Source: Gammaproteobacteria bacterium (GTDB lineage Bacteria; Pseudomonadota; Gammaproteobacteria; Chromatiales; Chromatiaceae). From it: a DNA stretch of 45,073 nt. Both the position numbers and the translations under genes were made by a program. The first letter of the stretch is position 1. Every line of letters begins with the position of its first letter. The stretch is from positions 1 through 45,073 of the forward strand of contig SACH01000020.1 in NCBI GenBank assembly GCA_009928645.1. Direction: 5' to 3'. The notes below the pieces were generated by a model. The model saw only the letters and a list, made by a program, of their open reading frames with translations, was not told where the DNA came from and ran no database searches. Shown piece after piece: positions 2,775 to 27,437 of this stretch.

Positions 2775-4085
2775 ATGACTCACCCCGACATACTTGGCCA
2801 ACTGAGCGGCCTGCAGACGATGATGGCGGACCTCCTCACCGGGGTCCCGGTTGCTTCGGCCAATGCCCGCTTCCACCCCCACCAGGCCTCCCTGGGCTGG
2901 TATCTCGGCCGTTCCGTCTATCGTGAACTCCGCTGGCTGCGGGAGGAGCTTGGTCGCGATGGGGATCTGGCTGGCCGGGTGCGCCACCTCTTCGACGTCG
3001 ACGAGGCGGAGGCACCGGTAGAACACCTGCCACCACCGAACCACCTGCTGGCCTGGGCGACGGAGATCCAGGACGAACACCTGCGCCGCCTGGCGACCCC
3101 AGGGGCCCTGCCAGACAGCCCCTTGCTGGTGGACGACCGGCTGGCCTGGTTCCTGCTCCAGGAACGGGCCCGGGACTACGAGGCCATGCTGTGGGTGCTC
3201 CTGGCGCGGCGTTTGCGGGAAGATGCCCGGGCTGAAGCGCAGCCCATGCCCGGCATCAGCCCGGCCCCTGACAGGGCACATGACGCAGCCAAAGATCCAG
3301 CACCAGAACCTGCCACCGCCCCGGAAGCGCCACCACCTCCAGGGGCATCCCCTCCCCTCCCCGCCTCGCCGACGCCGCAGCTGGAACCGCGCCTGCCCAG
3401 TGCCGATACGGTGGCGGTCACCCAGGGCCACTACCGGGTCGGTTCCCGGGGGGAGCCCTGGGCCTACGACCACGAACTGCCGCCCCAGGCAGTTGAACTC
3501 GCCAATTTCCGCATCGCCCGCCGGCCCGTGACCAACGCCGAATTTCTAGGCTTCCTCACGGCGGGTGGCTATGGCCGTCCGGAGTTCTGGGACGCTGCGG
3601 GCCAGGCCTGGGTGGCCAGCGGCGCGATCCACGCACCCTGGCACTGGCGCAGGGATGGCCAGGGGGGCTGGTATGCCCTCGGTCTCAACGGCCCCGTCCT
3701 TCTGGCCGCCGAGGAGCCGGTAGCGGGGTTGAGCCGCCACGAGGCCCAGGCCTATGCCGCCTGGGTGGCGAGCCTGGGGGGCGCATTGACCGGTGCCGTC
3801 CTGCAGCACGAGTATCAGTGGGAGGTCGCCGCCCGTGCCGGCCACCTGGAAGGCACGGGCCGGGTCTGGGAGTGGTGCGCCAACCCCTTCCACCCTTATC
3901 CGGATTTCAGTCCCTTCCCTGACCCCACCGTCTCCCAGACCGCCTTCCACGTCGCTCAGGGCGTGCTGCGTGGGGCCAGCCTTCACACCCAGCGCTGCCT
4001 GCGCCGCGCCAGCTTCCGCCACCCCGCCGTAGCCGACGATCGTTTCCGGATCAGCGGCCTACGGCTGGTCTTCCCCCCGGACTGA
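2775..4085 (+). CDS. EgtB-like DinB/FGE-sulfatase-domain protein with substituted iron ligands
   Basis: 436 residues. The N-terminal half (about 1-145) is a DinB-like four-helix domain; a Pro/Ala-rich linker (about 160-210) follows; the C-terminal half (about 215-435) is a formylglycine-generating-enzyme/sulfatase-modifying fold (FRIARRPVTNAEFLGFL, RVWEWCANPFHPYPDF, VLRGASLHT). This architecture belongs to EgtB, OvoA and SenA, non-haem iron enzymes that join a thiol or selenol to a histidine betaine or histidine. Here the usual LGH of the first iron ligand reads LGR (R46), and the usual HExxH-like pair reads E130...D134 (QERARDYEAM). If the alignment is right, all three His ligands are gone and the protein is unlikely to be a normal sulfoxide synthase. 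No egtD-like methyltransferase is nearby. It could be a binding protein or an enzyme of another type. Confidence 0.75.
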   Translation: MTHPDILGQLSGLQTMMADLLTGVPVASANARFHPHQASLGWYLGRSVYRELRWLREELGRDGDLAGRVRHLFDVDEAEAPVEHLPPPNHLLAWATEIQDEHLRRLATPGALPDSPLLVDDRLAWFLLQERARDYEAMLWVLLARRLREDARAEAQPMPGISPAPDRAHDAAKDPAPEPATAPEAPPPPGASPPLPASPTPQLEPRLPSADTVAVTQGHYRVGSRGEPWAYDHELPPQAVELANFRIARRPVTNAEFLGFLTAGGYGRPEFWDAAGQAWVASGAIHAPWHWRRDGQGGWYALGLNGPVLLAAEEPVAGLSRHEAQAYAAWVASLGGALTGAVLQHEYQWEVAARAGHLEGTGRVWEWCANPFHPYPDFSPFPDPTVSQTAFHVAQGVLRGASLHTQRCLRRASFRHPAVADDRFRISGLRLVFPPD

Positions 4086-4525: not shown

Positions 4526-5434
4526 ATGCAGTCTATTTTCGTTGCCATCGCCTTCATGGGTTCCCTGGGCCTGATGTTGGCCAGCATCCTGGTCCTGGCT
4601 AATAAGCGCTTCTTCGTCTTCGAAGACCCCCGCATCGATCAGGTCGAGGACCTGCTGCCCAAGGCCAATTGCGGCGCCTGCGGCACGGCGGGCTGTCGCC
4701 CCTTCGCCGAACTGCTGGTCCAGGGGGAGATCGAGCCGGCCAAGTGCACCGTCAACTCCAAGGACATGAACCAGGTCATCGCCACCTTCCTCGGCGTCGA
4801 CCTGGGCAGGGAGGAGAAGCGCGTCGCTCGGCTGGCCTGCGCCGGCGGCAGCCACGTCGCCTATATCCGCGCCTCTTATGGCGGTATCGAATCCTGTCGA
4901 GCGGCGGCCCTGGTCTCCGGTGGCGGCAAGGGCTGCGCCTGGGGCTGTTTGGGCTTGGGTGACTGCGCCGCGGTTTGTGACTTTGACGCCATCCGCATGG
5001 ACCGCCACGGTCTGCCGGTGGTGTCGGAGGTCGACTGCACCGCCTGTGGTGACTGTGTCGAGGTCTGCCCCAAGGACCTGTTCAGCCTCCACCCCGTCAG
5101 CCACCAACTTTGGGTCGCCTGCCACAACCAGGCTTTTGGTGACGAGGCCGAGAAGGAGTGCGAGGTCATCTGCACCGCCTGCGGCCGCTGTGCCCAGGAT
5201 TCCCCCGAGGGCCTGATCGAGATTCGCGACAATCTGGCGGTGATCGATTACGCCAAGAACAGCCTCGCCTCCCGGGTGGCCATCGAGCGCTGCCCGACCG
5301 GGGCCATCGTCTGGCTGGAGAAGGGCGGCAAGGCCGAAAAGGGCCGCGACGCGCGCAAGGTGGTGCGCAAGGAGGCCCTCCAGCCTGTGGCCAGCCGGCC
5401 AAAATCACCCCCCAGGGTCGCGACCCGCGCCTAG
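4526..5434 (+). CDS. rnfB: RnfB, ferredoxin-like iron-sulfur subunit of the Rnf complex
   Basis: 302 residues, the long form of RnfB. Residues 5-25 form a membrane anchor. C49, C52, C57 and C74 (CGACGTAGC...PAKC) form the family's 4Fe-4S site. C137/C141/C147/C151 form a second site, and C171/C174/C177/C181 give a classic CxxCxxCxxxC. The last ferredoxin-like pair is reduced: C216, C219, C222 and C256 (ERCPTGAI) remain, but the fourth Cys of that motif is S226 and the partner CxxCxxC is absent (DYAKNSLASR), so one cluster of the pair is probably lost. RnfB accepts electrons from ferredoxin at the cytoplasmic face and passes them into the complex. It is the first gene of the operon; the basic tail after residue 265 has no recognisable motif. 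Confidence 0.93.
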   Translation: MQSIFVAIAFMGSLGLMLASILVLANKRFFVFEDPRIDQVEDLLPKANCGACGTAGCRPFAELLVQGEIEPAKCTVNSKDMNQVIATFLGVDLGREEKRVARLACAGGSHVAYIRASYGGIESCRAAALVSGGGKGCAWGCLGLGDCAAVCDFDAIRMDRHGLPVVSEVDCTACGDCVEVCPKDLFSLHPVSHQLWVACHNQAFGDEAEKECEVICTACGRCAQDSPEGLIEIRDNLAVIDYAKNSLASRVAIERCPTGAIVWLEKGGKAEKGRDARKVVRKEALQPVASRPKSPPRVATRA

Positions 5435-5436
5435 CC

Positions 5437-5455
5437 GGGGCGGCGCCGCCGCCCC
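5437..5455 (+). terminator. GC-only hairpin between rnfB and nifJ
   Basis: An 8-bp perfect stem (GGGGCGGC/GCCGCCCC) with a GCC loop starts 3 nt after the rnfB stop. There is no following T-run, so it is not a classical intrinsic terminator. In a same-strand operon with a 170-nt gap it could attenuate transcription or protect the 3' end of rnfB mRNA, giving different levels of RnfB and the downstream proteins. Confidence 0.45.
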
Positions 5456-5604
5456 AGACCCAAGGTTAGGGCAACTGCCTGCCAGCACTCAATTTCGTCA
5501 GCACTCGCTCCATTATCCCGCGCCCCGCGCGCCCCTGTATCCGGTTCCCCGGCCCCAACCGCCACGGGATTCATCAAACCCAGACCGCTGAGTAGATCAA
5601 GGCC

Positions 5605-8600
5605 ATGTTCGGAAAAAAAGACGAGAAGTCCTTTAAGTATCCTGGCGTTCGGCAGGCGATGGACGGCAATGCCGCCGTCATCCTCTGCGAGCGGGAGGCC
5701 TCGGATGCAGCGGGCGCTTATCCCATCACCCCCTCCACCCAGATGGGCGAGTTCTGGGCCGAGGAGGTCGCCAAGGGCCATCTCAATGTCTCCGGCAAGC
5801 CGCTGATCTTCGTCGAGCCCGAATCCGAGCACGCGGCGGCGGCGGTCACCGCCGGTATGGCCATGACCGGGCTGCGCGCTACCAACTTCTCCTCGGCCCA
5901 AGGCGTGGCCTTCATGCACGAGTCGCTCTATGCCGCGGTCGGCAAGCGCCTACCTTACGTGCTCAATATCGGCTGCCGCGCCATCACCAAGGCCAGTCTC
6001 AATGTCCACTGCGCCCACGACGATTACCACTGCATCGACGACACCGGCTTCTTCCAGGTCTTCGGTAAGAACACCCAGGAAGCGGCGGACCTCAACCTCA
6101 TCGGCCACAAGATCGCCGAGCTGTCCCTGACCCCGGCGGCGGTGGCCCAGGACGGCTTTCTCACCACTCACCTCATCGAGCCCCTGATGGTGCCGGAGCG
6201 GGAACTGGTCGCCGAATTCCTCGGCCGCCCGGATGACATCATCGTCTGTCCGACCCCGGCCCAGAAGCTGGTTTACGGCGAGACCCGCCGCCGCGTCCCC
6301 GAGGTCTGGGACGTGGACAAGCCCATGCAATCCGGCACGGTGCAGAACCAGGACGCCTACATGCAGGCGGTGGCGGCTCAGCGGCCCTACTTCTTCCAGC
6401 ACATCGCCCCCCTGGCCGACCAGGTGATGGACGAGTATTACCAGCTCACTGGTCGTCGTTATCGCCGTGTCACTGGCTACCGCACCGAGGACGCCGAGTA
6501 CCTGATCCTGGGCCAGGGCAGCATGATCCTCCAGGCCGAGGCGGTAGCCGACTACCTGCGCGAGACCCGCAAGCTCAAGGTTGGCGTGGTCAACCTGACC
6601 ATGTACCGTCCCTTCCCCGGCGACCTCCTCGGCCCCCTGCTCAAGGGCAAGCGTGGCGTGGCGGTGCTGGAGCGGACCGACCAGCCCCTGGCGGAGGATC
6701 TGCCCATCATGCGCGAGGTTCGCGCCGCCCTCTCCAAGTGTCTGGAGAACGGCGCGATCGAGCGCAACGAGTCGCTCCCCTACCCGGCCTATGACAGCTA
6801 CAAGTCGGGCGACATGCCGCGACTCTATTCCGGCTGCTACGGCCTGGGTTCCCGCGACCTCCAGCCCGAGGGCCTGATCGCCGCCATCGAGAACATGCTC
6901 CCCGCCGGCCGGCGGCAGAAGTTCTTCTATCTTTCTGTGGACTTCATGCGTGAGGCCACCGACCCCAAGGATGAGATCCGCCTCCAGGCCCTCAAGGATG
7001 CCTACCCGGCGGCCGCCAGCCTGGCCCTCAAGGGCAGCGAGAACCCCAACCTGCTGCCCAAGGGCGCCATCACGGTGCGCATGCACTCGGTGGGCGGCTG
7101 GGGGGCCGTGACCACCGGCAAGAACCTGGCCATGACCCTCTACGACCTGCTGGGCTTCGACATCCGCGCCAACCCCAAGTACGGCTCGGAGAAAAAGGGC
7201 CAGCCCACCACCTACTTCCTGTCCGCGGCCCCGGAGCCCATCCGCCTCAACTGCGAGTACACCTACGTCGACGTGGTGATGTCGCCGGACCCCAATGTCT
7301 TCACCCACTCCAACCCCCTGTCCGGGCTGAAGAAGGGCGGCGTCTTCATCATCCAGTCCAGCCTTGGCAACGCCGAGGCAGTGTGGGCCACTATCCCCAG
7401 CGAGGCCCGGCGCTTCATCGTCGATCAGGAGATCCACGTCTTCTACGTCGACGGCTTCAAGATCGCCCGTGACGAGGCCTCGGACCCGGAGCTTCAGTTC
7501 CGCATGCAGGGCAACGCCTTCCAGGGCGCCTTCTTCGCCGCCTCGCCCCTCATGGAGCGTGCTGGTCTCGACGAGAACGGCCTGTTCCAGGCCATCGAGG
7601 ATCAATTGCGGTCCAAGTTCGGCGGCAAGGGCGAGCGGGTGGTGCAGGACAACCTGCGGGTGGTGCGCCGCGGCTTCGACGAGATCGTCGAGATCAAGGA
7701 CAAGCCCCTCAACGTCGGCCAGCTCATCCCCCACAAGACCTCCAAGCTGCCGATCATGCTTAAGCAGTTGCCGGAAGGCGACGGCTTCGTGTCCGATGTC
7801 CACCGCTTCTGGCGCCAGACCGGCTACTTCTACGCCACCGGCCGCGGTAACGGCAACCTGGCGGATCCTTACATGGCCATGAGCCTGATGCCGGCCTCCA
7901 CCGGCGTCTACCGCGACATGACCCAGATCCGCTTCGAGTATCCCAAGTTCCTGCCGGAGAACTGCACCGCCTGCGGCGGCTGCTTCTCCACCTGCCCGGA
8001 CTCCGCCATCCCCGGCCTGGTCAACACCGTGGCCGACATCTTCAACACCGCCATCCTGCGGGTGGAGAAGGGGATGCCCACCCAGTACCTGCGCCGCGAG
8101 ACGCGGAAGGTCGAGAAGCGCCTGCGGGAACTGCTGGACGGGGCCGGCGAGGGCGCCGATACCCGCACCCTCCTCGACCAGGCGGTCCTGGAGACCCTGG
8201 CCGCCTCCGAACTGCAAGGAGAGCAGAAGGCGTCCCTGGAGAAAGAGATGGGCCTGTTTCTGGAGGCCCTGAGCGGCTTCCAGTTGGCCATCACCAAGCC
8301 CTATTGGACCAACCGGGAGAAGAAGGAGAAGGGCAGCGGCGGCCTGTTCAGCATCACCGTCAACCCCTACACCTGTAAGGGCTGCATGGAATGTATCGAG
8401 GTCTGTGCAGACGGCGCCCTGGTGGCCGAGCCCCAGACCGAGGACGCCATCGCTGAAATGCGCGCCAAATGGGCCTTCTGGCTCGACCTGCCGACCACCC
8501 ACCCAGACTTCATCCGCATCGACGATCTCAACGAGAAGGTCGGCGCCCTGGAGACCCTGCTCCTCGATAAGGCCAACTACCAGTCCATGGTCTCCGGCGA

Positions 8601-10524
8601 CGGCGCCTGCATGGGCTGCGGCGAGAAGACCGTCATCCACCTCTTCACCGGCACCGTCACCGCCTTGATGCAGGGGCGGGTCAAGCAGCACCTGGCGGAA
8701 CTCGATGACCTCATCAACCGTCTGGAGACCCACGTGCGCCTCAAGCTGGCGGCGGGGGTGGACCTCAGCGACCCGACGGCCATCGCCCAGGTCCTGAACC
8801 GTCACCAGGACGCCGACTTAACCCTGGGTGAGCTGTCCAGCGAGCTGGACCAGGGCCGCAAGGTTAACCCCGTCGATCCCGAGTGGCTCGGCTGGGTCAC
8901 CGGCCTCCTCGGCAAGCTGCGCGACCTCAAGGCCCGCTATACCGACACCCAGCCCCGGGCGGAGATGGGCATCATCAACGCCACCGGCTGCACCTCGGTC
9001 TGGGGCTCCACCTTCCCCTACAACCCCTACCCCTTCCCCTGGACCAGCCACCTCTTCCAGGACTCCCCCTCGGTGGCCATGGGCATCTTCGAGGGCCACA
9101 TGCGCAAGATGGCCGAGGGCTTCAAGGCGGTGCGCCAGGCCCGGATCGAGCTGGATAAGGGCTACAAGGCCGCCGAGCACGCGGCCTTCTTCACCTACTT
9201 CAACTGGAAGGACTTCAGCGAGGAGGAGTGGCGCCTCTGCCCGCCGGTGGTCAGCGTGGGCGGTGACGGCGCCATGTACGACATTGGCTTCCAGAACCTG
9301 TCCCGGGCGCTCATGTCCGGCACGCCGATCAAGGTCCTGGTCCTCGACACCCAGGTTTACTCCAACACCGGCGGCCAGGCCTGCACCTCCGGCTTCATCG
9401 GCCAGGTGGCGGACATGTCGCCCTACGGCAAGGCCTGGAAGGGCAAGACCGAGATCCGCAAGGAGATGGGCCTCATCGGCATGGCCCACCGCACCAGCTT
9501 CGTGCTCCAGGGCAGCATCTCCCACATGAGCCACCTGCTGGAGGGCTACATCGACGGCCTCAACAGCCGCCGCCCGGCCCTGTTCAACATCTACGCCGTC
9601 TGCCAGCCGGAGCATGGCGTCCCCGACGACCACTCCGAGCACCAGAGCCGCCTGGCGGTGGAGTCCCGCGCCTATCCCCTGTTCCGCTTCGACCCGGACG
9701 CCGGCACCACCTTTGAGGAGTGCTGCTCCATCGAGGGCAACCCCAATCTGGACGATGACTGGATCAGTTGGGCCATCAAGTACCAGGACGAGGCCGGCAA
9801 GGAGCAGCAACTGGAACTGCCCATGACCTTCGCCGACTTCGCCATGACCGAGGGCCGTTTCCGCAAGCACTTCCGCAAGGCCCCGCCGGAGACCTGGAAC
9901 GACGCCATGGTGCCCCTGCACGATTTCCTCGACCTGGACGCCGACGACCGCGAGGGCAAGTTCCCCTTCGTCTGGGGCGTGGACGGCAAGAACCGCCTGA
10001 TGCGCGCCCTGGTCTCCCAGGAACTGGTCCTCTCCTGCGAGGAGCGGCGCGGCTTCTGGCGCCAGTTGCGCGGCATCGTCGGCCTGGATCGGCAGTTCGA
10101 CGAGGAAGCGGTGCGCAACCAGGCCAAGGCCGAGATGGCGCAGAAGCTCACCGCCGGCCTCTTCGCCCTCGCCACCGGTGGCGCCACCGGCCTGGGGTCC
10201 GGGCTGCTGGCGGACTTCGCCCCGGCGGGTGGCGGCAACGGCACCGGCCAGACGGCCGGCGCGGCCGCGGGGGGCTGGGAGCCGGTGTGGATCGAGACCC
10301 CCGAGTGCACCGCCTGCGACGAGTGCATGAACATCAACCCCAAGATCTTCGCCTACAACGACCAGAAGCAGGCCGTCATCCTCGACCCCAAGGGCGGCCC
10401 CTTCAAGGATGTCGTCAAGGCGGCGGAGAAGTGCACCGCCGGCTGCATCCACCCCGGCACGCCCTTTAACCCGGCGGAAAAGGATGTCGACAAGCTCGTC
10501 GCCCGGGCGGCCAAGTACCAGTAA
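5605..10524 (+). CDS. nifJ: pyruvate:ferredoxin (flavodoxin) oxidoreductase with C-terminal fused ferredoxin domain
   Basis: 1639 residues against about 1170-1200 for a usual single-chain PFOR. It catalyses pyruvate + CoA + oxidised ferredoxin to acetyl-CoA + CO2 + reduced ferredoxin, reversibly. Order: pyrimidine-binding and transketolase-C-like domains (about 1-450; YPITPSTQMGEFWAE), gamma domain (about 490-680; GGWGAVTTGKNLA), two 4Fe-4S motifs (from C787, CTACGGCFSTC; from C924, CKGCMECIEVC), GDGACMGCGE at 998-1007 with proximal-cluster Cys, and the thiamine-diphosphate domain (ATGCTSVWGST around 1126; GGDGAMYDIGFQN around 1219). Two spacers are long: about 137 residues between the 4Fe-4S motifs and about 120 between GACMGCGE and ATGC. 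A Gly/Ala-rich linker (about 1520-1558) leads to an extra ferredoxin-like domain with C1568, C1571, C1574 and C1610. It lies between rnfB and rnfC, so the fused ferredoxin may hand electrons directly to Rnf. Confidence 0.93.
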   Translation: MFGKKDEKSFKYPGVRQAMDGNAAVILCEREASDAAGAYPITPSTQMGEFWAEEVAKGHLNVSGKPLIFVEPESEHAAAAVTAGMAMTGLRATNFSSAQGVAFMHESLYAAVGKRLPYVLNIGCRAITKASLNVHCAHDDYHCIDDTGFFQVFGKNTQEAADLNLIGHKIAELSLTPAAVAQDGFLTTHLIEPLMVPERELVAEFLGRPDDIIVCPTPAQKLVYGETRRRVPEVWDVDKPMQSGTVQNQDAYMQAVAAQRPYFFQHIAPLADQVMDEYYQLTGRRYRRVTGYRTEDAEYLILGQGSMILQAEAVADYLRETRKLKVGVVNLTMYRPFPGDLLGPLLKGKRGVAVLERTDQPLAEDLPIMREVRAALSKCLENGAIERNESLPYPAYDSYKSGDMPRLYSGCYGLGSRDLQPEGLIAAIENMLPAGRRQKFFYLSVDFMREATDPKDEIRLQALKDAYPAAASLALKGSENPNLLPKGAITVRMHSVGGWGAVTTGKNLAMTLYDLLGFDIRANPKYGSEKKGQPTTYFLSAAPEPIRLNCEYTYVDVVMSPDPNVFTHSNPLSGLKKGGVFIIQSSLGNAEAVWATIPSEARRFIVDQEIHVFYVDGFKIARDEASDPELQFRMQGNAFQGAFFAASPLMERAGLDENGLFQAIEDQLRSKFGGKGERVVQDNLRVVRRGFDEIVEIKDKPLNVGQLIPHKTSKLPIMLKQLPEGDGFVSDVHRFWRQTGYFYATGRGNGNLADPYMAMSLMPASTGVYRDMTQIRFEYPKFLPENCTACGGCFSTCPDSAIPGLVNTVADIFNTAILRVEKGMPTQYLRRETRKVEKRLRELLDGAGEGADTRTLLDQAVLETLAASELQGEQKASLEKEMGLFLEALSGFQLAITKPYWTNREKKEKGSGGLFSITVNPYTCKGCMECIEVCADGALVAEPQTEDAIAEMRAKWAFWLDLPTTHPDFIRIDDLNEKVGALETLLLDKANYQSMVSGDGACMGCGEKTVIHLFTGTVTALMQGRVKQHLAELDDLINRLETHVRLKLAAGVDLSDPTAIAQVLNRHQDADLTLGELSSELDQGRKVNPVDPEWLGWVTGLLGKLRDLKARYTDTQPRAEMGIINATGCTSVWGSTFPYNPYPFPWTSHLFQDSPSVAMGIFEGHMRKMAEGFKAVRQARIELDKGYKAAEHAAFFTYFNWKDFSEEEWRLCPPVVSVGGDGAMYDIGFQNLSRALMSGTPIKVLVLDTQVYSNTGGQACTSGFIGQVADMSPYGKAWKGKTEIRKEMGLIGMAHRTSFVLQGSISHMSHLLEGYIDGLNSRRPALFNIYAVCQPEHGVPDDHSEHQSRLAVESRAYPLFRFDPDAGTTFEECCSIEGNPNLDDDWISWAIKYQDEAGKEQQLELPMTFADFAMTEGRFRKHFRKAPPETWNDAMVPLHDFLDLDADDREGKFPFVWGVDGKNRLMRALVSQELVLSCEERRGFWRQLRGIVGLDRQFDEEAVRNQAKAEMAQKLTAGLFALATGGATGLGSGLLADFAPAGGGNGTGQTAGAAAGGWEPVWIETPECTACDECMNINPKIFAYNDQKQAVILDPKGGPFKDVVKAAEKCTAGCIHPGTPFNPAEKDVDKLVARAAKYQ

Positions 10525-10539
10525 TGTGATGGAACGAAC

Positions 10540-11892
10540 ATGGGCATCATGAACTTCTTCCGCTCCACCAAGACCTTCGCCCACGGCATCCACCCCGTGG
10601 AGCACAAGGAACAGACGGCGGACAAGCCGATCCGGCGCCTGGGCTTCGCCCCCGAATTGGTGCTGCCCCTGGCGCAGCACCGGGGCAAACCCTCCCGGCC
10701 CGTCGTCAAAGTCGGTCAGGAGGTGGTCCGCGGAGAGCCCATCGCCGCAGCCGACGGGCTGATGTCGGTGCCCATCCATGCCCCGGCGGACGGCGTCATC
10801 CGCGGCATCGATCTGGCGCCGACCGCGGAGGGCCCCAGGGCCAGGGCCATCTTCCTCAAGGTCCTTCGCGCCTCCACCCAGGAGGTGCTCTACGAGCAGC
10901 CCCGGGACCTGGACAGCCTGACCCCGGATGAACTGGTAGCCGCCGTGCAGGACGCCGGCCTGGTGGGATTGGGCGGTGCCGCCTTCCCCAGTCACGTCAA
11001 GATGAGGCCGCCGGCGGGACATCCTATCCATACCCTGGTGGTCAACGGCTGTGAGTGCGAGCCTTACCTGACCTGTGACCATCGCCTGATGCTGGAGCGG
11101 CAAGATAGCATTATGGCCGGTATCCGCATCGCCCTGCGGGCGACCGGGGCCCAGCGGGCGGTGATCGGGGTCGAGGACAACAAGCCTGACGCCCTGGCCC
11201 GCCTGCGGGAGCGTATCCCCACCGATCTACCGGTGACCGTCCAAGCGGTGGAGACCAAGTACCCCCAAGGCGCCGAGAAGATGCTCATCAAGAGCCTCTT
11301 CAACCTGGAAGTCCCGGTGGGCGGCCTGACCCTGGACCTAGGCATCGCCGTCTACAACGTCGGCACCCTGGCGCAGATGGGCGAGCTCCTGCCCCGCGGC
11401 CGCGGGCTCATCGAACGGGTGGTGACCGTCAGCGGTCCCGCCATCTTCCGTCCCGGCAACTATCTGGTGCCCATCGGCACCCCCCTGCGCTTCCTGCTGG
11501 AGCAGACGGGGATGAGCGAGCAGGCCGGCGAGGTCATCCTCGGCGGGCCCATGATGGGGATGTCCGTGGCCTCTCTGGACGTGCCGGTGACCAAGGCCGT
11601 CTCGGGGGTGGTGGTCCTGGAGGCCCAGGACCCGGATCTGGCCCAACGCCAGGTGCTGCCCTGCATCAAGTGCGCTGCCTGTCTGGAGGCCTGCCCGGTC
11701 AAGCTCAACCCCTCCATGCTGGGTGAGCTGGCCCAGCATCGGGACTACGGGCGCATGGCGAGCGAGTACTACCTGGACCAGTGTTTCGAGTGCGGCTGCT
11801 GTGCCTACGTCTGCCCCTCCAACATCCCCCTGACTCAGTACTTCCGCATCGCCAAGGCCATCAACCGCGAACACCCGCCCAGGCCCAACTGA
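10540..11892 (+). CDS. rnfC: RnfC, NADH/FMN-binding peripheral subunit of the Rnf complex
   Basis: 450 residues, starting 15 nt after the nifJ stop. The N-terminal region carries the FAHGIHP motif and a barrel-sandwich segment (VKVGQEVVRGEPIA). The central part is the NuoF-like Rossmann domain for FMN and NADH (GLVGLGGAAFPSHVK, VVNGCECEPYLTCD, EDNKPDAL). Two C-terminal 4Fe-4S motifs begin at C375 (CIKCAACLEACP) and C415 (CFECGCCAYVCP). RnfC exchanges electrons with NAD(H) on the cytoplasmic side. The short C-terminus, without the long Ala/Lys repeat tail of enteric RnfC, resembles the clostridial and Bacteroidetes type. Confidence 0.95.
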   Translation: MGIMNFFRSTKTFAHGIHPVEHKEQTADKPIRRLGFAPELVLPLAQHRGKPSRPVVKVGQEVVRGEPIAAADGLMSVPIHAPADGVIRGIDLAPTAEGPRARAIFLKVLRASTQEVLYEQPRDLDSLTPDELVAAVQDAGLVGLGGAAFPSHVKMRPPAGHPIHTLVVNGCECEPYLTCDHRLMLERQDSIMAGIRIALRATGAQRAVIGVEDNKPDALARLRERIPTDLPVTVQAVETKYPQGAEKMLIKSLFNLEVPVGGLTLDLGIAVYNVGTLAQMGELLPRGRGLIERVVTVSGPAIFRPGNYLVPIGTPLRFLLEQTGMSEQAGEVILGGPMMGMSVASLDVPVTKAVSGVVVLEAQDPDLAQRQVLPCIKCAACLEACPVKLNPSMLGELAQHRDYGRMASEYYLDQCFECGCCAYVCPSNIPLTQYFRIAKAINREHPPRPN

Positions 11893-11914
11893 GCCTCCGC
11901 CAACGAGCCACGCC

Positions 11915-12958
11915 ATGTCGAGACCCATCGAGATCCGCACCTCCCCGCACCTGAAGCGGGCGCGCACCGTGCCGCAGATCATGCAGGGCGTGGTCTGGGC
12001 CCTGCTGCCCATCTGCGCCTTCGCGGTTGTCCAGTTTGGCCTCAGCGCCCTGCTGCTGCTGGTTACCACCACGCTGGTGGCCATGGCCACCGAGTACGGC
12101 TTCGCCCGCCTCTCTGGCCGGGGTAACACCCTCAACGACTGGAGCGTGGTCATCACCGGTCTGCTCCTGGGCCTGACCCTGCCACCGGGCTTCCCCCTGT
12201 GGATGGCGGCGGTGGCGGCCTTCGTCGGCGTCGCACTGGGCAAGTCCCTGTTTGGCGGTCTGGGCTTCAACGTCATGAACGCCGCCCTGGTGGGGCGCGC
12301 CTTCGCCCAGGCGGCCTTCCCGGTGGCCATCACCACCTGGACGCCGGCCTTCGCCCCCGGCCGCTTCTGGGAGCTGATCCCCTCGACCCTCACCCTGCCC
12401 TTCCTGCAGCCCGTGCCGGTGAAAGACTGGATCGCCGGGCTGAACATCGACGGCTTCACCGGCGCCACCCCCCTGGCCCTGCAGAAATTCCAGCAGATCG
12501 AGGTGAGCAGTCTGGACCTCTTCACCGGCATGGTCGCCGGCTCCGCCGGGGAGACCTCGGCGCTGCTGATCCTGGTCTGCGGCCTCTGGCTGGCCTATCA
12601 GCGCATGCTGGACTGGAAGATCCCGGTGGGGGTCATGCTCGGCGCGGTGCTGGTCGCCCTGCCCCTCTGGCTGCTGGATGGCAGCGTCTACCCCACGCCC
12701 TGGTTCGTGCTCTTCTCCGGGGGCCTGATGCTGGGAGCCTGGTTCATGGCCAGCGATATGGTCGGCTCGCCGGTTACCCCCTGGGGGGCCCTGGCCTATG
12801 GCCTCTTCATCGGCGTCCTGACCGTGGTCATCCGCCTCTTCGGCGGCCTCACCGAGGGCATCATGTACGCCATCCTCCTGGCCAACGCCGCCGCCCCCCT
12901 GATCTCGGCGGTCACCCAGCCGCGGGTCTATGGCGCTAAGCGGGAGGGGCGGTCATGA
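11915..12958 (+). CDS. rnfD: RnfD, membrane FMN-carrying subunit of the Rnf complex
   Basis: 347 residues with about nine or ten hydrophobic helices. The N-terminal SPHLKRARTVPQIM stretch and KSLFGGLGFNVMNAALVGRAF are family signatures. DGFTGATPLAL contains the covalent-FMN threonine, T185 by position, matching the S/TGAT rule for NqrB and RnfD. It forms part of the ion-translocating membrane core with RnfA, RnfE and RnfG. Its stop overlaps the rnfG start by 4 nt (ATGA), a sign of translational coupling. Flavinylation needs an ApbE transferase, which is not in the window. Confidence 0.95.
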   Translation: MSRPIEIRTSPHLKRARTVPQIMQGVVWALLPICAFAVVQFGLSALLLLVTTTLVAMATEYGFARLSGRGNTLNDWSVVITGLLLGLTLPPGFPLWMAAVAAFVGVALGKSLFGGLGFNVMNAALVGRAFAQAAFPVAITTWTPAFAPGRFWELIPSTLTLPFLQPVPVKDWIAGLNIDGFTGATPLALQKFQQIEVSSLDLFTGMVAGSAGETSALLILVCGLWLAYQRMLDWKIPVGVMLGAVLVALPLWLLDGSVYPTPWFVLFSGGLMLGAWFMASDMVGSPVTPWGALAYGLFIGVLTVVIRLFGGLTEGIMYAILLANAAAPLISAVTQPRVYGAKREGRS

Positions 12959-13857
12959 GCGCAACCCTTCCCGTTCAGTCCGGCACCTCGGCTCCGGCAG
13001 CGCTTCCGGCGCTATCTCCAAGCCCGATGCCTGGAGATGAATACGAACAGGCACCCGAACAGGCCGCTAATCAGGGTGCAAATCAGGCCGCGAACCGGAC
13101 CAGGACACTGACCACGGCACAGGCCTCGGCGCGGGCCACTGAACCGGCCGTTGAGCAGGCCCCTGCCACCCCCAGCCTGGCCATGCTGCTGACCCTAGGG
13201 CTCATCGCCGCCATCTCCGGCCTGCTGGTGGCGACGGCCTATGAGTACACCGCGCCCATCATCGCCGAGAAGGAGCGCCTCGCCACCGAGGCGGCAGTGT
13301 TGCGCATCCTCCCCAACGCCGTCGCCAAGCGCGATTTCGTCATCGACGCGGCGGGCCGCCTGGCCCCCGTGGACCCGGTAGCCGGGGGGGGCACCGGCGG
13401 GGGCGGTGGAGCGGCCGCGGGAGGCGGCGGTCTGGTCTATGCCGGCTACGACGCCCAGGGCCAGCTCCAGGGTCTGGCCTTCACCGGCGTCGGTAGCGGC
13501 TACGCCGGTCCCGTGGAGGTCCTGTTCGCCTACGACCCCCAGCGTCAGGTCATCGTCCGCAGCAAGGTCCTCAAATCCACCGAGACCCCGGGCTTCGGCG
13601 ACAAGCTGGACACGGACCCGGCCTTTCTGAAGAACCTGGAGGCCCTGGACGCCCGTCTCGACGCCACGGGTCAGGCCCTGGCCAACCCCATCGTCACCGT
13701 CAAGAACGGCACCAAGACCCAGCCCTGGCAGATCGACGCCATCACCGGCGCCACCCTCTCCTCCCGGGCGATGGGCAAGGCGGCCAACCACGCCGCCCAG
13801 CGCGCCGCCCCGGCGATCCAGCGCAGCCTGGCGCTGCTGGCCCAACCGTCAAACTAA
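12955..13857 (+). CDS. rnfG: RnfG, periplasmic flavoprotein subunit of the Rnf complex, with unusual N-terminal extension
   Basis: 300 residues. A single membrane helix (about residues 80-97, LTLGLIAAISGLLVATAYEY) precedes a periplasmic FMN-binding domain with DAITGATLSSRAM; T267 is the expected covalent FMN site. Usual RnfG starts a few residues before the helix, whereas this frame has about 75 hydrophilic residues first, with repeated QAxNQxAN and Ala/Pro/Glu-rich sequence. There is also a Gly-rich insertion (about residues 143-159) in the periplasmic part. The ATG at 12955 overlaps the rnfD stop, which argues that the extension is translated; an internal start near M79 cannot be excluded. 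Confidence 0.92.
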   Translation: MSATLPVQSGTSAPAALPALSPSPMPGDEYEQAPEQAANQGANQAANRTRTLTTAQASARATEPAVEQAPATPSLAMLLTLGLIAAISGLLVATAYEYTAPIIAEKERLATEAAVLRILPNAVAKRDFVIDAAGRLAPVDPVAGGGTGGGGGAAAGGGGLVYAGYDAQGQLQGLAFTGVGSGYAGPVEVLFAYDPQRQVIVRSKVLKSTETPGFGDKLDTDPAFLKNLEALDARLDATGQALANPIVTVKNGTKTQPWQIDAITGATLSSRAMGKAANHAAQRAAPAIQRSLALLAQPSN

Positions 13858-13874
13858 ATCGGGAGGCATGAACC

Positions 13875-14573
13875 ATGGCTGAGGCATCCCAACCGGCGGC
13901 GGTCGCCAAGGCGGCGGCCGACCCCTTCAATCGCGAGGAGAACCTGACCGCGGACACCTTCCTGCGCGGCCTCTGGCAGGAGAACCCGGTCTTCGTCATG
14001 CTGCTCGGCATGTGCCCGGTGCTGGCGGTGACCAACTCCGCCATCAACGCCCTGGGGATGGGGCTGGCGACGACCTTCGTCCTGCTGGGCTCCGGGGCCC
14101 TGGTGTCCCTGCTGCGCCGCTGGATTCCCAAGCAGGTGCGCATCGCCAGTTACATCGTCATCATCGCCACCTTCGTCACCGTGGTGGACTATGCCATCCA
14201 TGCCATCAGCCTAGAGTTGTACGCCTCCCTGGGGGCCTTCATCCAGCTCATCGTCGTCAACTGCATCATCCTCGGGCGGGCCGAGGCCTATGCCTCCAAG
14301 CAACGGCTGTTGCCGACCCTGGTCAATGGCCTGGGGATGGGCCTGGGCTTCACCCTGGCCCTGTTCAGCCTGGGGTCGGTGCGCGAGATCCTCGGCAACG
14401 GCACCCTGTTTGGCGTCGCCCTCTTCGGCGACAGCTTCCAGCCCTGGCTGGTGATGATCCTGCCTCCCGGGGGCTTCTTCGTCCTCGGCACCTGGCTGCT
14501 GCTGTTCGCCTGGCTCAAGCAGCGGCGCGAGCGCCGCGTCCTCGCCTCCGCCGGAGCCGCCGCCCATGGCTAA
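13875..14573 (+). CDS. rnfE: RnfE, integral membrane subunit of the Rnf complex
   Basis: 232 residues, preceded by GGGAGG. Six hydrophobic helices; LRGLWQENPVFVMLLGMCPVLAVTNSAINALGMG is a RnfE/NqrD signature, and VNCIILGRAEAYASK is the second inverted half. The Cys in GMCP and VNCI match those proposed to bind an intramembrane 2Fe-2S cluster together with RnfA. It pairs with RnfA in an antiparallel arrangement in the ion-pumping core. It overlaps rnfA by 8 nt. Confidence 0.95.
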   Translation: MAEASQPAAVAKAAADPFNREENLTADTFLRGLWQENPVFVMLLGMCPVLAVTNSAINALGMGLATTFVLLGSGALVSLLRRWIPKQVRIASYIVIIATFVTVVDYAIHAISLELYASLGAFIQLIVVNCIILGRAEAYASKQRLLPTLVNGLGMGLGFTLALFSLGSVREILGNGTLFGVALFGDSFQPWLVMILPPGGFFVLGTWLLLFAWLKQRRERRVLASAGAAAHG

Positions 14574-15156
14574 CCCCTCCCTGCCCCTGATCTTTCTCGA
14601 CGCCGCGGTGGTCAACAACTTCGTGCTGGCCCTGTTCCTGGGCATCTGCCCCTTCCTCGGCACCTCCGCCAAGAAGGAGACGGCCCTGAACATGGGGCTG
14701 GCCACCACCTTCGTCATGGTCGTCAGTTCACTCAGCGCCTACGGGGTCAACTGGCTGCTGGTGGAACTCGAACTGGAATTCCTGCGCCTGATCTGCTTCA
14801 TCGCCATCATCGCCTCGGCGGTGCAACTGGTGGAGATGTTCGTCAAGAAGCACAGCCCTGCCCTGTTCCGCTCCCTGGGCATCTTCCTGCCCCTGATCAC
14901 CACCAACTGCGCCATCCTCGGCCTGGCCCTGTTCCAGACCGCCAAGGAGTACGACTTTCTCCAGAGCCTGGTCTACAGCCTGGGGGCCGGCACCGGCTTC
15001 ATGCTGGCCCTAATGCTCATGGCCGGCCTGCGCGAGAAGCTGGAACTGGCCAAGCTGCCGACGGTCAGCCAGGGCGCCGCCCTGAGCCTGATGCTGGCCG
15101 GGCTCCTGTCCCTGGCCTTCATGGGCTTCGCCGGCCTGGGGGGCTCGCATGGTTAG
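14566..15156 (+). CDS. rnfA: RnfA, integral membrane subunit of the Rnf complex
   Basis: 196 residues, six helices, homologous to NqrE. The signatures LFLGICPFLGTSAKKETALNMG and PLITTNCAILGLALF contain the two Cys that, with those of RnfE, fit the intramembrane 2Fe-2S site. Its start overlaps rnfE by 8 nt and its end overlaps the following small Cys-rich gene by 8 nt, so three membrane proteins are tightly coupled in translation. Confidence 0.95.
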   Translation: MANPSLPLIFLDAAVVNNFVLALFLGICPFLGTSAKKETALNMGLATTFVMVVSSLSAYGVNWLLVELELEFLRLICFIAIIASAVQLVEMFVKKHSPALFRSLGIFLPLITTNCAILGLALFQTAKEYDFLQSLVYSLGAGTGFMLALMLMAGLREKLELAKLPTVSQGAALSLMLAGLLSLAFMGFAGLGGSHG

Positions 15157-15334
15157 GGCCCTGATCGCCAGCCTGGTGATCTTCGCCGTCCTGCTCGGCT
15201 GGGTCTGGGTGCAGCAGCGCTACGCCACCTTTGCCCGCCGGAACCCCCGGCTTGGCCCCTTCCGCAGCCCCGATGATAGCTGTGGTGGAAGCTGCTCCTG
15301 CAAGGGCGGCCAGTGCCAGGTCCCGCCGCGATGA
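15149..15334 (+). CDS. small Cys-rich single-pass membrane protein, NqrM-like candidate
   Basis: 61 residues. One N-terminal membrane helix (ALIASLVIFAVLLGWVWV) is followed by a short basic stretch and a C-terminal cluster CGGSCSCKGGQC. Helix plus CxxxCxC...C resembles NqrM, the small iron-delivery factor needed to build the membrane Fe site of Na+-NQR, and also the FeoB-associated Cys-rich membrane proteins. Its ATG overlaps the rnfA stop by 8 nt, so it belongs to the operon. A role in maturing the RnfA/RnfE 2Fe-2S site is an inference from position and Cys pattern. No RnfH is seen. Confidence 0.7.
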   Translation: MVRALIASLVIFAVLLGWVWVQQRYATFARRNPRLGPFRSPDDSCGGSCSCKGGQCQVPPR

Positions 15335-15529
15335 GGGTAGCCAGTCGCCGTACCCCACGGCATTGCCACCGGTTCACCGTCAATAGGCGCCAGTAACCAC
15401 TCGAAATCCACCACGGGTCCACAACGGCTCCCCCCTTGGCTGGCCGTGGTCCCCAGCGTGAAAACCACCAGCAACCTTTTTCGATCCTCAACCCCACTTG
15501 ACCTCCGCACTCCTCAAGGAACCCGCAAG

Positions 15530-16387
15530 ATGAGCGAACTCGAACCCCCCATCGGTCCCACGGTCGCGGCCCAGATCCTGGCATCCCGGCGCATCACCCC
15601 GGAGAAGGCGGTCGAGGTGCGCCATCTCACCCTGCGGGTCACGGACCCGGCCTTCCAGTTCATCGAGGGCCAGAGCATCGGCGTGGTGGTACCCGGCCCC
15701 CACCCCTTCGGCAACCCCTACCACCTGCGCCGCTACTCCATCGCCAACGCCCGCCCACGCCCCGAGGACGAGACCGTTGACCTGGATATCCTGGTGCGCC
15801 GTTGCTTCTACATCGACGATATCAGCGGCGAGCGCTACCCCGGCATCGCCTCCAACTTCCTCTGCGACGCCCAACCCGGACAGCCGATCACCCTCAGCGG
15901 CCCCTATCGCAGCCCCTTTCAGATGCCCCAGGACAAGGACGCCAACCTGCTGATGATCGGCACCGGCACCGGCGTCGCCCCCTTCCGCGCCTTTGCCCAG
16001 CTCATTTACGAGCGCTGCGGCGGCTGGGACGGCCAGGTGCGCCTGTTCTACGGCGGCCGCACCGGCCTGGACCTGGCCTACGCCAACGACGAGGAGACCA
16101 ACCTCGCCGATTATTACGACCAGCCCACCTTCAAGGCCTTCAAGTCCCTGGCCACCAATTCCCTGGTGGCCTCCTCCGATGCCCTGCAGCGCGGCCTGCG
16201 GGAGAACCTGGACGAGGTCTGGGAACTGGTCCAGGCGCCCAAGACCCACGTCTTCCTCGCCGGCCTGGGTAAGATCGCCCAGGTCCTTGACAAGGTGATG
16301 AGTGAGCGCGCCGGCTCCGCCGAGGCCTGGCAGACCCTGAAGCAGGGCATGATTCAGCAGGGTCGCTGGTCGGAGTTGATTTACTAA
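15530..16387 (+). CDS. ferredoxin-NADP+ reductase-type flavoprotein
   Basis: 285 residues from the ATG at 15530, chosen because AAGGA lies 9 nt upstream; the frame is open further upstream to 15446 but without a ribosome site. It has an FAD-binding domain with HLRRYSIAN and an NAD(P)-binding domain with MIGTGTGVAPFRAF, then FYGGRTGLDLAY and HVFLAGLG. The fold and motifs fit plant-type FNR, which moves electrons between reduced ferredoxin or flavodoxin and NADP+. The gap to the small Cys-rich gene is 195 nt, so it may have its own promoter, but orientation and function place it with the Rnf-PFOR module. Which nucleotide it prefers cannot be read with certainty. Confidence 0.85.
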   Translation: MSELEPPIGPTVAAQILASRRITPEKAVEVRHLTLRVTDPAFQFIEGQSIGVVVPGPHPFGNPYHLRRYSIANARPRPEDETVDLDILVRRCFYIDDISGERYPGIASNFLCDAQPGQPITLSGPYRSPFQMPQDKDANLLMIGTGTGVAPFRAFAQLIYERCGGWDGQVRLFYGGRTGLDLAYANDEETNLADYYDQPTFKAFKSLATNSLVASSDALQRGLRENLDEVWELVQAPKTHVFLAGLGKIAQVLDKVMSERAGSAEAWQTLKQGMIQQGRWSELIY

Positions 16388-17792: not shown

Positions 17793-18533
17793 TCAGTGCA
17801 CGTCCTTCCAGTATTCCTTCTTGAGGAAGTAAGCGGCGACGAAAAGCACCGCCAGGAACAGCAGCACCCAGATGCCCAAGCGCTGGCGTTCGAGCTTGAT
17901 CGGCTCGCCGACGTAGGTGAGGAAGTTGGTGAGGTCGCGGGCGAAGGCGTCGTATTGCTCCGCCGTCATCGTGCCACCCTGGGCGGGCTCGACCCCGACC
18001 ACGGTCTTGACCGGGGCGCCGTCCGGGCCCTTATGTTCCTCGAACTTGGGCTGTGCCAGGCCCTGCAGTCCGGCGAGGACATGAGGCATGCCGACGTTGG
18101 GGAAGACCAGGTTATTCACGCCCAGGGGCCGGCTGGGATCGGCGTAGAAGCCCTTGAGGTAGCTATAGACCCAGTCGGGGTTGCGCCAGCGGGTGGCCAG
18201 GGTGAGGTCGGGGACGGCGGTGCCGAACCATTTCTCGGCACTCACCGGGTTCATGGTGGAGACCATGAGGTCGCCGGGCTTGGCGCCGGTGAAGATGAGG
18301 CTCTGGCGCAGGGTGGCGTCGTCGATGCCCAGGTCGGCGGCCAAACGGTTGTAGCGCATGTAGCCCAGGGAATGGCAGCCCATGCAATAGTTGACATAGT
18401 AGCCGGCACCGCGCTGCAGGGAGGCCTGGTCCTTAAGGTCGATGTCGGCGTCCTCCAGGGGAACGCCGCCGCCCGCGGCGGGGGCCAGGGCGGGGACGAG
18501 CAGGAACAGGGAGGCGAGGAGTAGTTTTCTCAT
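17793..18533 (-). CDS. petC: cytochrome c1 of the cytochrome bc1 complex
   Basis: 246 residues. A signal peptide (MRKLLLASLFLLVPALAPAA), one c-type haem site C50-M-G-C53-H54 followed by SLGYMRYNRLA, and a C-terminal membrane anchor (LGIWVLLFLAVLFVAAYFLKKEYWKDVH) are the marks of proteobacterial cytochrome c1. It takes electrons from the Rieske protein and passes them to a soluble cytochrome such as the c4 encoded nearby. Its start overlaps the petB stop by 4 nt; it is the last gene of petABC and is followed by a strong palindrome. Confidence 0.95.
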   Translation of the reverse strand: MRKLLLASLFLLVPALAPAAGGGVPLEDADIDLKDQASLQRGAGYYVNYCMGCHSLGYMRYNRLAADLGIDDATLRQSLIFTGAKPGDLMVSTMNPVSAEKWFGTAVPDLTLATRWRNPDWVYSYLKGFYADPSRPLGVNNLVFPNVGMPHVLAGLQGLAQPKFEEHKGPDGAPVKTVVGVEPAQGGTMTAEQYDAFARDLTNFLTYVGEPIKLERQRLGIWVLLFLAVLFVAAYFLKKEYWKDVH

Positions 18534-19771: not shown

Positions 19772-20364
19772 CAGGCGACTCCTCCGTCTTCGCCGATCTT
19801 GAGGATGGCGTCGGTGACGTATTGGTGTTTAGGGATGACGAGGTTGGTGGGAGCGGGGGAGCCCTTGAAGACGCGGCCGGCGAGATCGAAGCGTGAGCCG
19901 TGGCAGGCGCAGAAGAAGCCGCCTTTCCACTCGGCGCCGAGGTCGTCAGGGGCGATGTCGGGACGATAGGTCGGCGAGCAGCCGAGGTGGGTACAGATGC
20001 CGATGGCGACGAAGTATTGAGGCTTGATGGACCGCGTGGGGTTCTGGGTATAGGCGGGCTGGTCGGAGGCGGCGGAGGCCGGGTCGATCAGTTGCGGGTC
20101 GAGCCCCGGAAGGGCGGCGAGCATGGCCTCGGTGCGGTTGACGACCCACACCGGTTTGCCGCGCCACTTGACACGCAGCAGGGCGCCGGGCTCAAGCTGG
20201 CTGACGTCGGCCTCGACTGGGGCGCCAGCGGCCTTGGCCTTAGCACTGGGCTCCCAGTAACTCAAAAAGGGTACGGCAACGAAGCCGGCGCCGACGGCTC
20301 CGACGACGCTGGTGGCGGCGATCAATACGCGCCGCCGGTTTTTGTCAACGCCTGGTGCGCTCAT
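19771..20364 (-). CDS. petA: Rieske 2Fe-2S protein of the cytochrome bc1 complex
   Basis: 197 residues. It starts with a twin-arginine-type signal anchor (KNRRRVLIAATSVVGAVGAG), which fits Tat export of a folded iron-sulfur protein. Ligand box 1 is C124-T-H126-L-G-C129 and box 2 is C152-A-C154-H155-G-S; C124, H126, C152 and H155 bind the cluster and C129-C154 would form the disulfide. It is the first gene of petABC; GAGGGG lies upstream of the ATG at 20364. Confidence 0.96.
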   Translation of the reverse strand: MSAPGVDKNRRRVLIAATSVVGAVGAGFVAVPFLSYWEPSAKAKAAGAPVEADVSQLEPGALLRVKWRGKPVWVVNRTEAMLAALPGLDPQLIDPASAASDQPAYTQNPTRSIKPQYFVAIGICTHLGCSPTYRPDIAPDDLGAEWKGGFFCACHGSRFDLAGRVFKGSPAPTNLVIPKHQYVTDAILKIGEDGGVA

Positions 20365-22406: not shown

Positions 22407-27347
<4,941 letters not shown>

Positions 27348-27437
27348 ATCAATTACTCTTGTTGTTGGCCGCTGCAACACCTGGAGGGCTCTCGGAACCA
27401 ATGAGTCAGTTACCGAAAGGCTCCCCTTGAGTGGCAA

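Follow-up and report, generated by a model that had tools for sequence, protein, structure and literature searches.

The rnf cluster described here is likely to encode a variant Rnf complex whose electron input would be a dedicated giant pyruvate oxidoreductase, not free ferredoxin. Rnf is usually drawn as trading electrons with the free ferredoxin pool; in the proposed variant, a 2-oxoacid oxidoreductase (POR) would probably be docked on Rnf as its input module. The cluster lies in a window of 45,073 nucleotides, the whole stretch of DNA analysed, from a gammaproteobacterium of the Chromatiaceae. It comprises nine genes, all on the plus strand between positions 4526 and 16387:

4526 to 5434, plus strand: rnfB, 302 aa, long (Acetobacterium/Clostridium) type; TIGR01944, 91.4 bits (cut-off 68.7); best solved relatives 9eri_B and 7zc6_B
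5605 to 10524, plus strand: POR, giant pyruvate:ferredoxin oxidoreductase, 1639 aa; PF01855, PF17147, PF01558, PF02775, and Fer4_13; phmmer matches to 6cin and 1b0p
10540 to 11892, plus strand: rnfC, 450 aa; TIGR01945, 486 bits (cut-off 246); 7zc6_C
11915 to 12958, plus strand: rnfD, with a TGAT flavin site; TIGR01946, 288 bits (cut-off 207)
12955 to 13857, plus strand: rnfG, with a TGATLS flavin site and an extra N-terminal stretch; PF04205; TIGR01947, 84.3 bits, under the cut-off of 102
13875 to 14573, plus strand: rnfE; TIGR01948, 248.8 bits (cut-off 213.4)
14566 to 15156, plus strand: rnfA; TIGR01943, 240.3 bits (cut-off 229.3)
15149 to 15334, plus strand: small membrane-anchored Cys-rich protein, 61 aa, of no family; in 51 of 60 named loci
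15530 to 16387, plus strand: plant-type FNR-like flavoprotein, ATG start; matches to 2b5o, 8hfq, and spinach FNR

Profile matches (Pfam and NCBIfam) confirmed the gene families, and the nine-gene order of the original prediction was borne out; it is conserved among relatives and not due to chance. All six Rnf subunits (RnfABCDGE) are encoded together. RnfB, C, D, E, and A score above their NCBIfam subfamily cut-offs and RnfG, though below that of TIGR01947, matches FMN_bind above the Pfam cut-off, with the flavinylation motif TGAT present in both RnfD and RnfG. Spacers of 170, 15, and 22 nt separate rnfB from POR, POR from rnfC, and rnfC from rnfD, respectively. Further downstream, the anticipated overlaps of 4–8 nt are found at rnfD/rnfG (4 nt), rnfE/rnfA (8 nt), and rnfA/small gene (8 nt), but rnfG and rnfE are separated by a 17-nt gap. 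The 170-nt spacer could leave room for a separate promoter; consensus scanning, uninformative in this G+C-rich sequence, found no promoter-like site, including in this spacer, and terminator candidates, sought with the same restriction, were no better than shuffles. Large minus-strand open reading frames (5950 to 8805 and 8818 to 11103) are probably a product of high G+C third-codon bias.

The embedded gene had been called nifJ. Its product does belong to the PFOR superfamily, but at 380.6 bits against the curated TIGR02176 cut-off of 911 it is, by profile score, a divergent enzyme outside the NifJ equivalog. It holds the PFOR domains POR_N, PFOR_II, POR (gamma), two-cluster ferredoxin, and TPP, and its fold aligns with 6cin (Z 24.8, rmsd 4.2, 419 aligned residues). 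The following elements can be located:

5719 to 5739, plus strand: YPITPST motif, pyruvate site together with R125 (5977 to 5979); alignment to 6cin_A; YPITPST in 76 of 77 relatives
7963 to 7995, plus strand: Fe-S motif 1 (C787–C797) of the two-cluster ferredoxin domain; 78 of 78 relatives
8029 to 8274, plus strand: helical insert A, residues 809–890, between both Fe-S motifs; AlphaFold2 model; longer than that of 6cin
8374 to 8406, plus strand: Fe-S motif 2 (C924–C934); 78 of 78 relatives
8608 to 8622, plus strand: C1002 and C1005 of the TPP-proximal cluster; GACMGCGE against GACAGCGE of 6cin; 78 of 78
8623 to 8964, plus strand: helical insert B, about residues 1007–1120, including a single helix some 46 residues long; AlphaFold2 model
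8989 to 8991, plus strand: C1129, third Cys of the TPP-proximal cluster
9259 to 9378, plus strand: TPP-binding GGDG (1219–1222) and VYSNTGGQ (1251–1258), the PFOR pyruvate-type motif
10165 to 10284, plus strand: Gly/Ala-rich low-complexity linker, about residues 1521–1560; pLDDT below 50 at 1525–1557; composition compared over 77 relatives
10288 to 10452, plus strand: C-terminal single-cluster ferredoxin domain, C1568, C1571, C1574, and C1610; Fer4_13; Cys in 77–78 of 78

The active-site set (YPITP, Arg, GDG, VYSNTGGQ, and the proximal-cluster Cys) is present, each motif being found in 72–77 of 77 relatives. POR shares its domain order, TPP/pyruvate motifs, and three clusters with two homodimeric PFORs, those from Desulfovibrio africanus (1b0p) and Moorella (6cin). 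By contrast, these two measure 1171–1231 aa and POR, with its two helical inserts, 1639 aa; furthermore, ferredoxin I is a separate protein in D. africanus, whereas POR carries a single-cluster ferredoxin fused to its C-terminus. This domain superposes on D. africanus ferredoxin I (1fxr; TMt 0.79, rmsd 1.3), and its tethered position is conserved across POR relatives.

The placement of a PFOR gene within an rnf operon had been thought unusual, which it is against textbook operons; nevertheless, the gill symbiont of Solemya velum was reported in 2014 to have one between rnfB2 and rnfC2 of its rnf2 operon (PMC4287430). That operon has the same order as the window and is included here (locus L104). 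The relevant part of that account gives the placement in one sentence, without the giant size, the tethered ferredoxin, the breadth of the arrangement, or the sister class of dead enzymes described below (PMC4287430). A literature search for a PFOR-Rnf supercomplex or a PFOR in rnf operons gave only this paper, and neither the tethered ferredoxin nor the dead-enzyme class turned up in the literature covered; subscription papers were thinly covered, so that these absences are weak.

When PFOR genes were sought inside rnf operons, the arrangement proved to be kept across families and phyla, so that one outcome named in advance as counting against the module, its absence from every relative, did not arise. 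In a set of 80 relatives with named loci, every POR whose contig leaves room for the neighbor has rnfB upstream (72/72) and rnfC downstream (66/66), and all full-length loci of a further survey have the same two neighbors. This type of RnfB and POR occur in exactly the same 3 genomes of a 398-genome phylum sample. POR and RnfB also diverge in step, their distances correlating as highly as those between Rnf subunits (r=0.85, species tree not factored out). RnfBs accompanied by a giant form one clade (support 100/98), apart from POR-less RnfBs, and a single insertion would suffice to account for it. An accidental neighborhood, inherited by descent and devoid of functional meaning, is nonetheless extremely improbable: the same order recurs between phyla, MAGs of SAR324, Verrucomicrobiota, and Spirochaetes being among those that have it, and POR was never lost or relocated in the 72 loci.

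The strongest evidence comes from sister operons. Operons with an intact POR are here termed class I; in class II, represented by 28 giants, a homologue of POR stands in its place, with rnfB upstream. All four catalytic motifs checked are missing from every class II giant (0/28), both [4Fe-4S] motifs are present in 28/28, and the 8 Fe-S Cys are invariant in 23/23. The C-terminal half is still modelled as a PFOR fold. PF02775 and PF01558 had no match in the two class II giants scanned; these domains are carried by KorB and KorA. The genes for this 2-oxoacid:ferredoxin oxidoreductase, korA-korB, adjoin the giant in most class II operons, and KorA scores above the TIGR03710 cut-off. In the class II loci L214, L229, and L235–L237, korAB are not adjacent, with no obvious contig-edge excuse, and rnfC is displaced in L235. 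Class II resembles known KorAB systems in its korA-korB pair, but adds, within an rnf operon, the dead giant and a dead half-POR of 830 aa to which the ferredoxin is tethered; 9 loci also have sucCD. Several genomes carry both classes; targeted searches of the window's own 92%-complete assembly revealed no class II operon.

Since a catalytically dead giant is kept at the slot, the class II proteins point to a role as scaffold and electron conduit on Rnf, and make up a large candidate pseudoenzyme family. More generally, this pattern suggests that the giant is a structural part of the Rnf pump and not a mere neighbor. PFOR and Rnf are classically joined via soluble ferredoxin, and their coupling could be functional instead of physical, with POR and Rnf co-expressed, sharing a soluble pool, and kept in matched amounts by the operon. 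Pyruvate is indeed read as the electron donor of Rnf in the relevant part of the Solemya velum symbiont paper (PMC4287430). We regard a purely functional coupling as improbable: it leaves unexplained both the ferredoxin that POR carries on its own tether and the presence beside rnfB, in 28 operons, of a motif-less POR homologue with intact Fe-S ligands.

The sequence shows the gene content, its conservation, the motifs kept or lost, the linker, and the ferredoxin domain; the docking of POR, the route of electrons and its reversibility, and the roles of the small gene and FNR are inferred. At POR, pyruvate, CoA, and TPP would yield acetyl-CoA and CO2; the electrons would enter at the TPP-proximal cluster and move on to the pair of clusters in the ferredoxin domain. 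The C-terminal ferredoxin, swinging on its flexible linker, would then deliver them to RnfB, from which they would travel through RnfA/E, RnfG, RnfD, and RnfC to NAD+ while ions are moved across the membrane. In class II, the giant keeps only its clusters, and the adjoining KorAB-type enzymes would use it as scaffold and conduit. Work on the Clostridium tetanomorphum Rnf anticipates that the electron donor to RnfB may be ferredoxin-like, either a domain or a subunit within some larger complex (PMC9588780).

The anatomy would equally allow the reverse reaction, NADH and the membrane gradient driving pyruvate synthesis. A ferredoxin-dependent pyruvate synthase was reportedly described from Chromatium in the 1960s, which would suit a system running mainly backward, with light or the membrane gradient driving pyruvate synthesis: Rnf would draw on the gradient and NADH to pass low-potential electrons directly to POR for assimilation of CO2 and acetyl-CoA. 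The host, a purple sulfur bacterium, is phototrophic (reaction-centre L/M genes were found) and has dsrA, and Rnf runs in reverse in diazotrophs (PMC12174285). Such a predominant direction seems doubtful, as the operon also occurs in a Spirochaetaceae MAG, an Opitutales MAG, and many non-phototrophic sulfur oxidisers, and sequence cannot tell direction. On anatomy, backward running overlaps with the preferred reading; it concerns direction. A link to dsrA was discarded because 173 of the order's 195 genomes carry this gene, too many for it to discriminate.

Rnf owes its name to nitrogen fixation, and nifJ feeds nitrogenase in enterobacteria, both of which favor a joint role of POR and Rnf in reducing ferredoxin for N2 fixation. 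This role is highly improbable: POR and nifH are independent in the 195 genomes of the order (51/57/40/47, Fisher p=0.89), which rules out N2 fixation as a common denominator, and searches of the window's genome and of its two congeners yielded no nifH.

On the Rnf side, the presumed acceptor RnfB contains 20 Cys, enough for five [4Fe-4S] clusters, and all 20 are present in 61–62 of 62 aligned RnfBs (one truncated). Its third ferredoxin-like region is reduced:

5171 to 5293, plus strand: FdIII region of RnfB, with one cluster left (C216, C219, C222, and C256); alignment to 7zc6 and 9eri; clade-wide

We know of no oxidoreductase gene inside the rnf operons of C. tetanomorphum or A. woodii. Their Rnf complexes have a similar long multi-cluster RnfB and a similar RnfC (7zc6, 9eri; PMC9588780), but their RnfBs end in a full two-cluster FdIII, whereas throughout the clade of the window RnfB lacks exactly the four Cys that would hold one FdIII cluster; which of the two is lost is our reading of the ligand order rather than of a structure. 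The cluster furthest from the membrane has been named as the entry point for electrons in C. tetanomorphum (PMC9588780). The idea that POR supplies the entry cluster, and that RnfB lost its own for this reason, was abandoned: several POR-less RnfBs of other bacteria lack the same cluster, so that its loss does not count as evidence for docking.

The small Cys-rich protein has no significant Pfam match. It shares with NqrM a single membrane helix and a Cys cluster encoded beside RnfA, by analogy only, and an identity with NqrM (DUF539) was rejected, since a scan of 26 orthologues with E values allowed up to 1 gave no match; it is a candidate Fe-S maturation factor. The FNR gene most likely starts at ATG 15530 rather than GTG 15446, because residue 29 is a Met aligned with the starts of several orthologues; the gap to the small gene is therefore 195 nt. 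FNR carries the FAD motif RxYSxx, a GTGTGxAPFR motif, and a C-terminal Tyr, but not the Ser-Arg pair of aligned FNRs, which we take to be the NADP 2'-phosphate site (Ser-Arg ... Tyr). The cluster had been proposed to be a single module joining pyruvate, ferredoxin, NAD(H), NADP(H), and the membrane gradient, with PFOR possibly docked on Rnf. The union of POR with Rnf is upheld by their conservation and co-divergence, and the dead homologues at the slot lend the docking idea indirect support, but the FNR arm, a putative side outlet, is optional (26 of 60 named loci) and, the Ser-Arg pair being absent, at most a possible link to NADP(H).

Taken together, the chances seem about even that there exists an Rnf built with a 2-oxoacid-oxidoreductase-derived subunit in two forms. 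In class I, a single membrane enzyme would oxidise pyruvate with NAD+ while translocating ions (or make pyruvate at the expense of the gradient); in class II, an ion-translocating machine would do the same with 2-oxoglutarate and NAD+, its former PFOR having turned into a catalytically dead scaffold with an Fe-S wire and a swinging ferredoxin. Rnf genes also cluster with rTCA genes in the thiotrophic symbiont Endoriftia, but that cluster was described with an Hdr-Flx complex, korABCD, and pntAB, and not with an oxidoreductase-derived scaffold in the rnf operon (PMC11636981). Class II giants may well be annotated automatically as 2-oxoacid oxidoreductases, which would mislead metabolic models. 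In the Allochromatium vinosum genome paper, the role of three Rnf clusters was called "entirely unclear" (PMC3368242); one of the three may be of the present kind, and the present operon offers a testable answer for one kind of Rnf cluster. If decarboxylation is the work of a permanent Rnf subunit, low-potential electrons would stay inside the complex, and in genomes with both classes, an ion pump would be tied directly to each of the two oxidative decarboxylations around the TCA cycle. Oxygen-exposed sulfur oxidisers, phototrophs, and symbionts would thereby have a protected route to oxidise pyruvate and 2-oxoglutarate, or to make both with membrane energy.

The host genome (~4.8 Mb) carries reaction-centre L/M genes and dsrA, and nifH was not found in it; the host is therefore a purple sulfur bacterium. 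Gene reading and family matches agree on nine operon genes on a single strand with the coordinates of the original prediction, the FNR gene most likely starting at 15530, but rnfG and rnfE do not overlap as claimed. An ordinary second rnfC (654-aa frame) lies on another contig, C427, of the same genome. Other genes in the window are:

742-1677, minus strand: phosphonate-binding-type protein, preceding the FGE-sulfatase-like gene
2028-2636: SNase-like gene, also preceding it
2775-4085: FGE-sulfatase-like protein, immediately upstream of rnfB
17793-20364, minus strand: cytochrome bc1 genes (Rieske protein, cytochrome b, cytochrome c1), convergent to the operon, ~1.4 kb downstream
22407-27437, minus strand: CheB-CheR-PAS-histidine kinase-receiver fusion, 1676 aa

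The giant pyruvate:ferredoxin oxidoreductase (POR) encoded between rnfB and rnfC is 1639 aa long, whereas solved PFORs span 1171-1231 aa. It retains YPITPST, the pyruvate-site Arg, GGDG, VYSNTGGQ (the motif type of PFOR), the proximal-cluster Cys and two ferredoxin-type Fe-S motifs, and with its pyruvate, TPP and Fe-S motifs kept, it is expected to catalyse a reaction on pyruvate. It scores far below the NifJ equivalog cut-off. The structure model contains two extra helical inserts (residues ~809-890 and ~1007-1120) and ends in a Gly/Ala-rich linker of low model confidence, followed by a single-cluster ferredoxin domain resembling D. africanus ferredoxin I (Foldseek, TMt 0.79, rmsd 1.3), whose Cys are conserved in 77-78 of 78 relatives. 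Among the matches listed, the closest named relatives are from Thiocapsa, Imhoffiella, Allochromatium and Marichromatium (76-78% identity).

At least 577 POR relatives were confirmed in a scan of genome contigs, and 80 named ones were retained; most loci surveyed are draft or metagenome assemblies. Within the same order and class, all full-length copies fetched have rnfB before POR and rnfC after it. Where a named locus has enough contig, POR always follows rnfB (72/72) and precedes rnfC (66/66); the small Cys-rich gene comes after rnfA in 51/60, and FNR is present in 26/60. Among the hosts of such operons with an intact POR (class I) are purple sulfur bacteria, Sedimenticola, Thiodiazotropha, Sulfuritalea, Gallionellales, Rhodoferax and Shewanella atlantica; the operons also occur in MAGs with SAR324, Opitutales and Spirochaetaceae labels. 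In a phylum sample, POR (>60% identity) and the matching RnfB type occur in the same 3 genomes out of 398. POR and RnfB pairwise distances correlate at r = 0.85 (range 0.65-0.85 among six genes compared, uncorrected for species relationships). The SAR324, Opitutales and Spirochaetes copies group in the POR tree and lie near one another in the RnfB tree, a pattern that movement of the operon as one block would produce. RnfBs from all giant-bearing operons form a single clade (100/98), separate from POR-less RnfBs. In the ferredoxin-like region FdIII of RnfB (window 5171-5293, residues 216-256), one [4Fe-4S] cluster is cleanly absent across the clade of the window's RnfB; some POR-less RnfBs of other bacteria also lack it.

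Distant POR matches (~28-31% identity along most of the protein) and RnfB matches led to 28 sister operons (class II). Their genes were called as longest ORFs, which makes the starts approximate. Their order and three example loci are:

Order: korA (~633 aa), korB (317 aa), 830-aa protein, rnfB, giant (1226-1572 aa), (sucC-sucD), rnfC-D-G-E-A
L212: 1913-16742
L218: 147-15331
L210: 1899-16997

By our count, korB is present in 19/28 loci and the 830-aa protein in 21/28; several loci that lack one or the other stop at a contig edge, but L214, L229 and L235-L237 not obviously so. Nine loci (L211, L212, L219, L224-L228, L234) carry sucC-sucD after the giant and, where the contig extends that far, ahead of rnfC, an arrangement that looks like one unit for 2-oxoglutarate oxidation, ATP formation and Rnf. 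Both classes occur together in genomes G003, G008, G009, G072 and G133, among others. In L238 (G048:C99) the giant is apparently split into two frames of 545 and 719 aa, the match counting two in-frame TAG. A third kind, L208 (5987-14267), comprises rnfB, a 1590-aa giant, rnfC and rnfD; this giant has 31% identity, lacks the catalytic motifs and sits on a very long branch.

The class II giant is a homologue of POR. In a motif scan, YPITPST, GGDGxxYDIG, YSNTGGQ and the proximal CxGCGE were each found in 0/28 class II giants, whereas both CxxCxxCxxxC motifs are present in 28/28, their eight Cys being invariant in all 23 aligned. The two giants scanned gave no Pfam match to PF02775 (TPP-binding C-terminal domain) or PF01558 (gamma domain), which KorB and KorA of these operons do match; the giant's C-terminal half is nevertheless predicted to have the PFOR fold (6cin, Z ~20, rmsd 4.2, 381 aligned). 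The 830-aa protein aligns with the C-terminal half of POR, lacks TGGQ (a stray GDG occurs in 1/7) and bears a tethered single-cluster ferredoxin after an Ala/Pro/Glu-rich linker. Because class I, solved PFORs and stand-alone relatives all carry the catalytic motifs, the parsimonious direction is loss in class II; the POR tree itself is rooted only at the midpoint.

Since catalysis appears lost but the Fe-S ligands and the place beside rnfB are kept in 28 operons, the class II giant is best explained, from sequence, as a subunit carrying electrons to Rnf and holding partners in place. The active POR of class I is, by the same reasoning, probably docked on Rnf as an input module, with its tethered ferredoxin acting as the mobile carrier that links POR to RnfB. 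According to the structure paper on C. tetanomorphum Rnf, electrons enter at the RnfB cluster lying farthest from the membrane, and the donor could be a ferredoxin-like domain or a subunit of a larger complex (PMC9588780). One study of the Solemya velum symbiont places PFOR between rnfB2 and rnfC2 and suggests pyruvate as Rnf electron donor (PMC4287430). The A. vinosum genome paper called the role of its three rnf clusters "entirely unclear" (PMC3368242), and in Kentron symbionts PFOR copies are highly expressed, with no tie to Rnf gene order. Searches of the open literature found neither the tethered ferredoxin nor the dead-enzyme class described.

By analogy with NqrM, whose gene lies in the nqr operon and whose target is the membrane cluster (PMC12174285), the small gene product (61 aa) may be an Fe-S maturation factor, but it has no family match. 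FNR, optional in the operon, may be a side outlet for electrons. Docking, electron route and direction of flow are what we infer for this module: it would be compatible with pyruvate oxidation in darkness or at low oxygen, and equally with pyruvate synthesis driven by the gradient under light.
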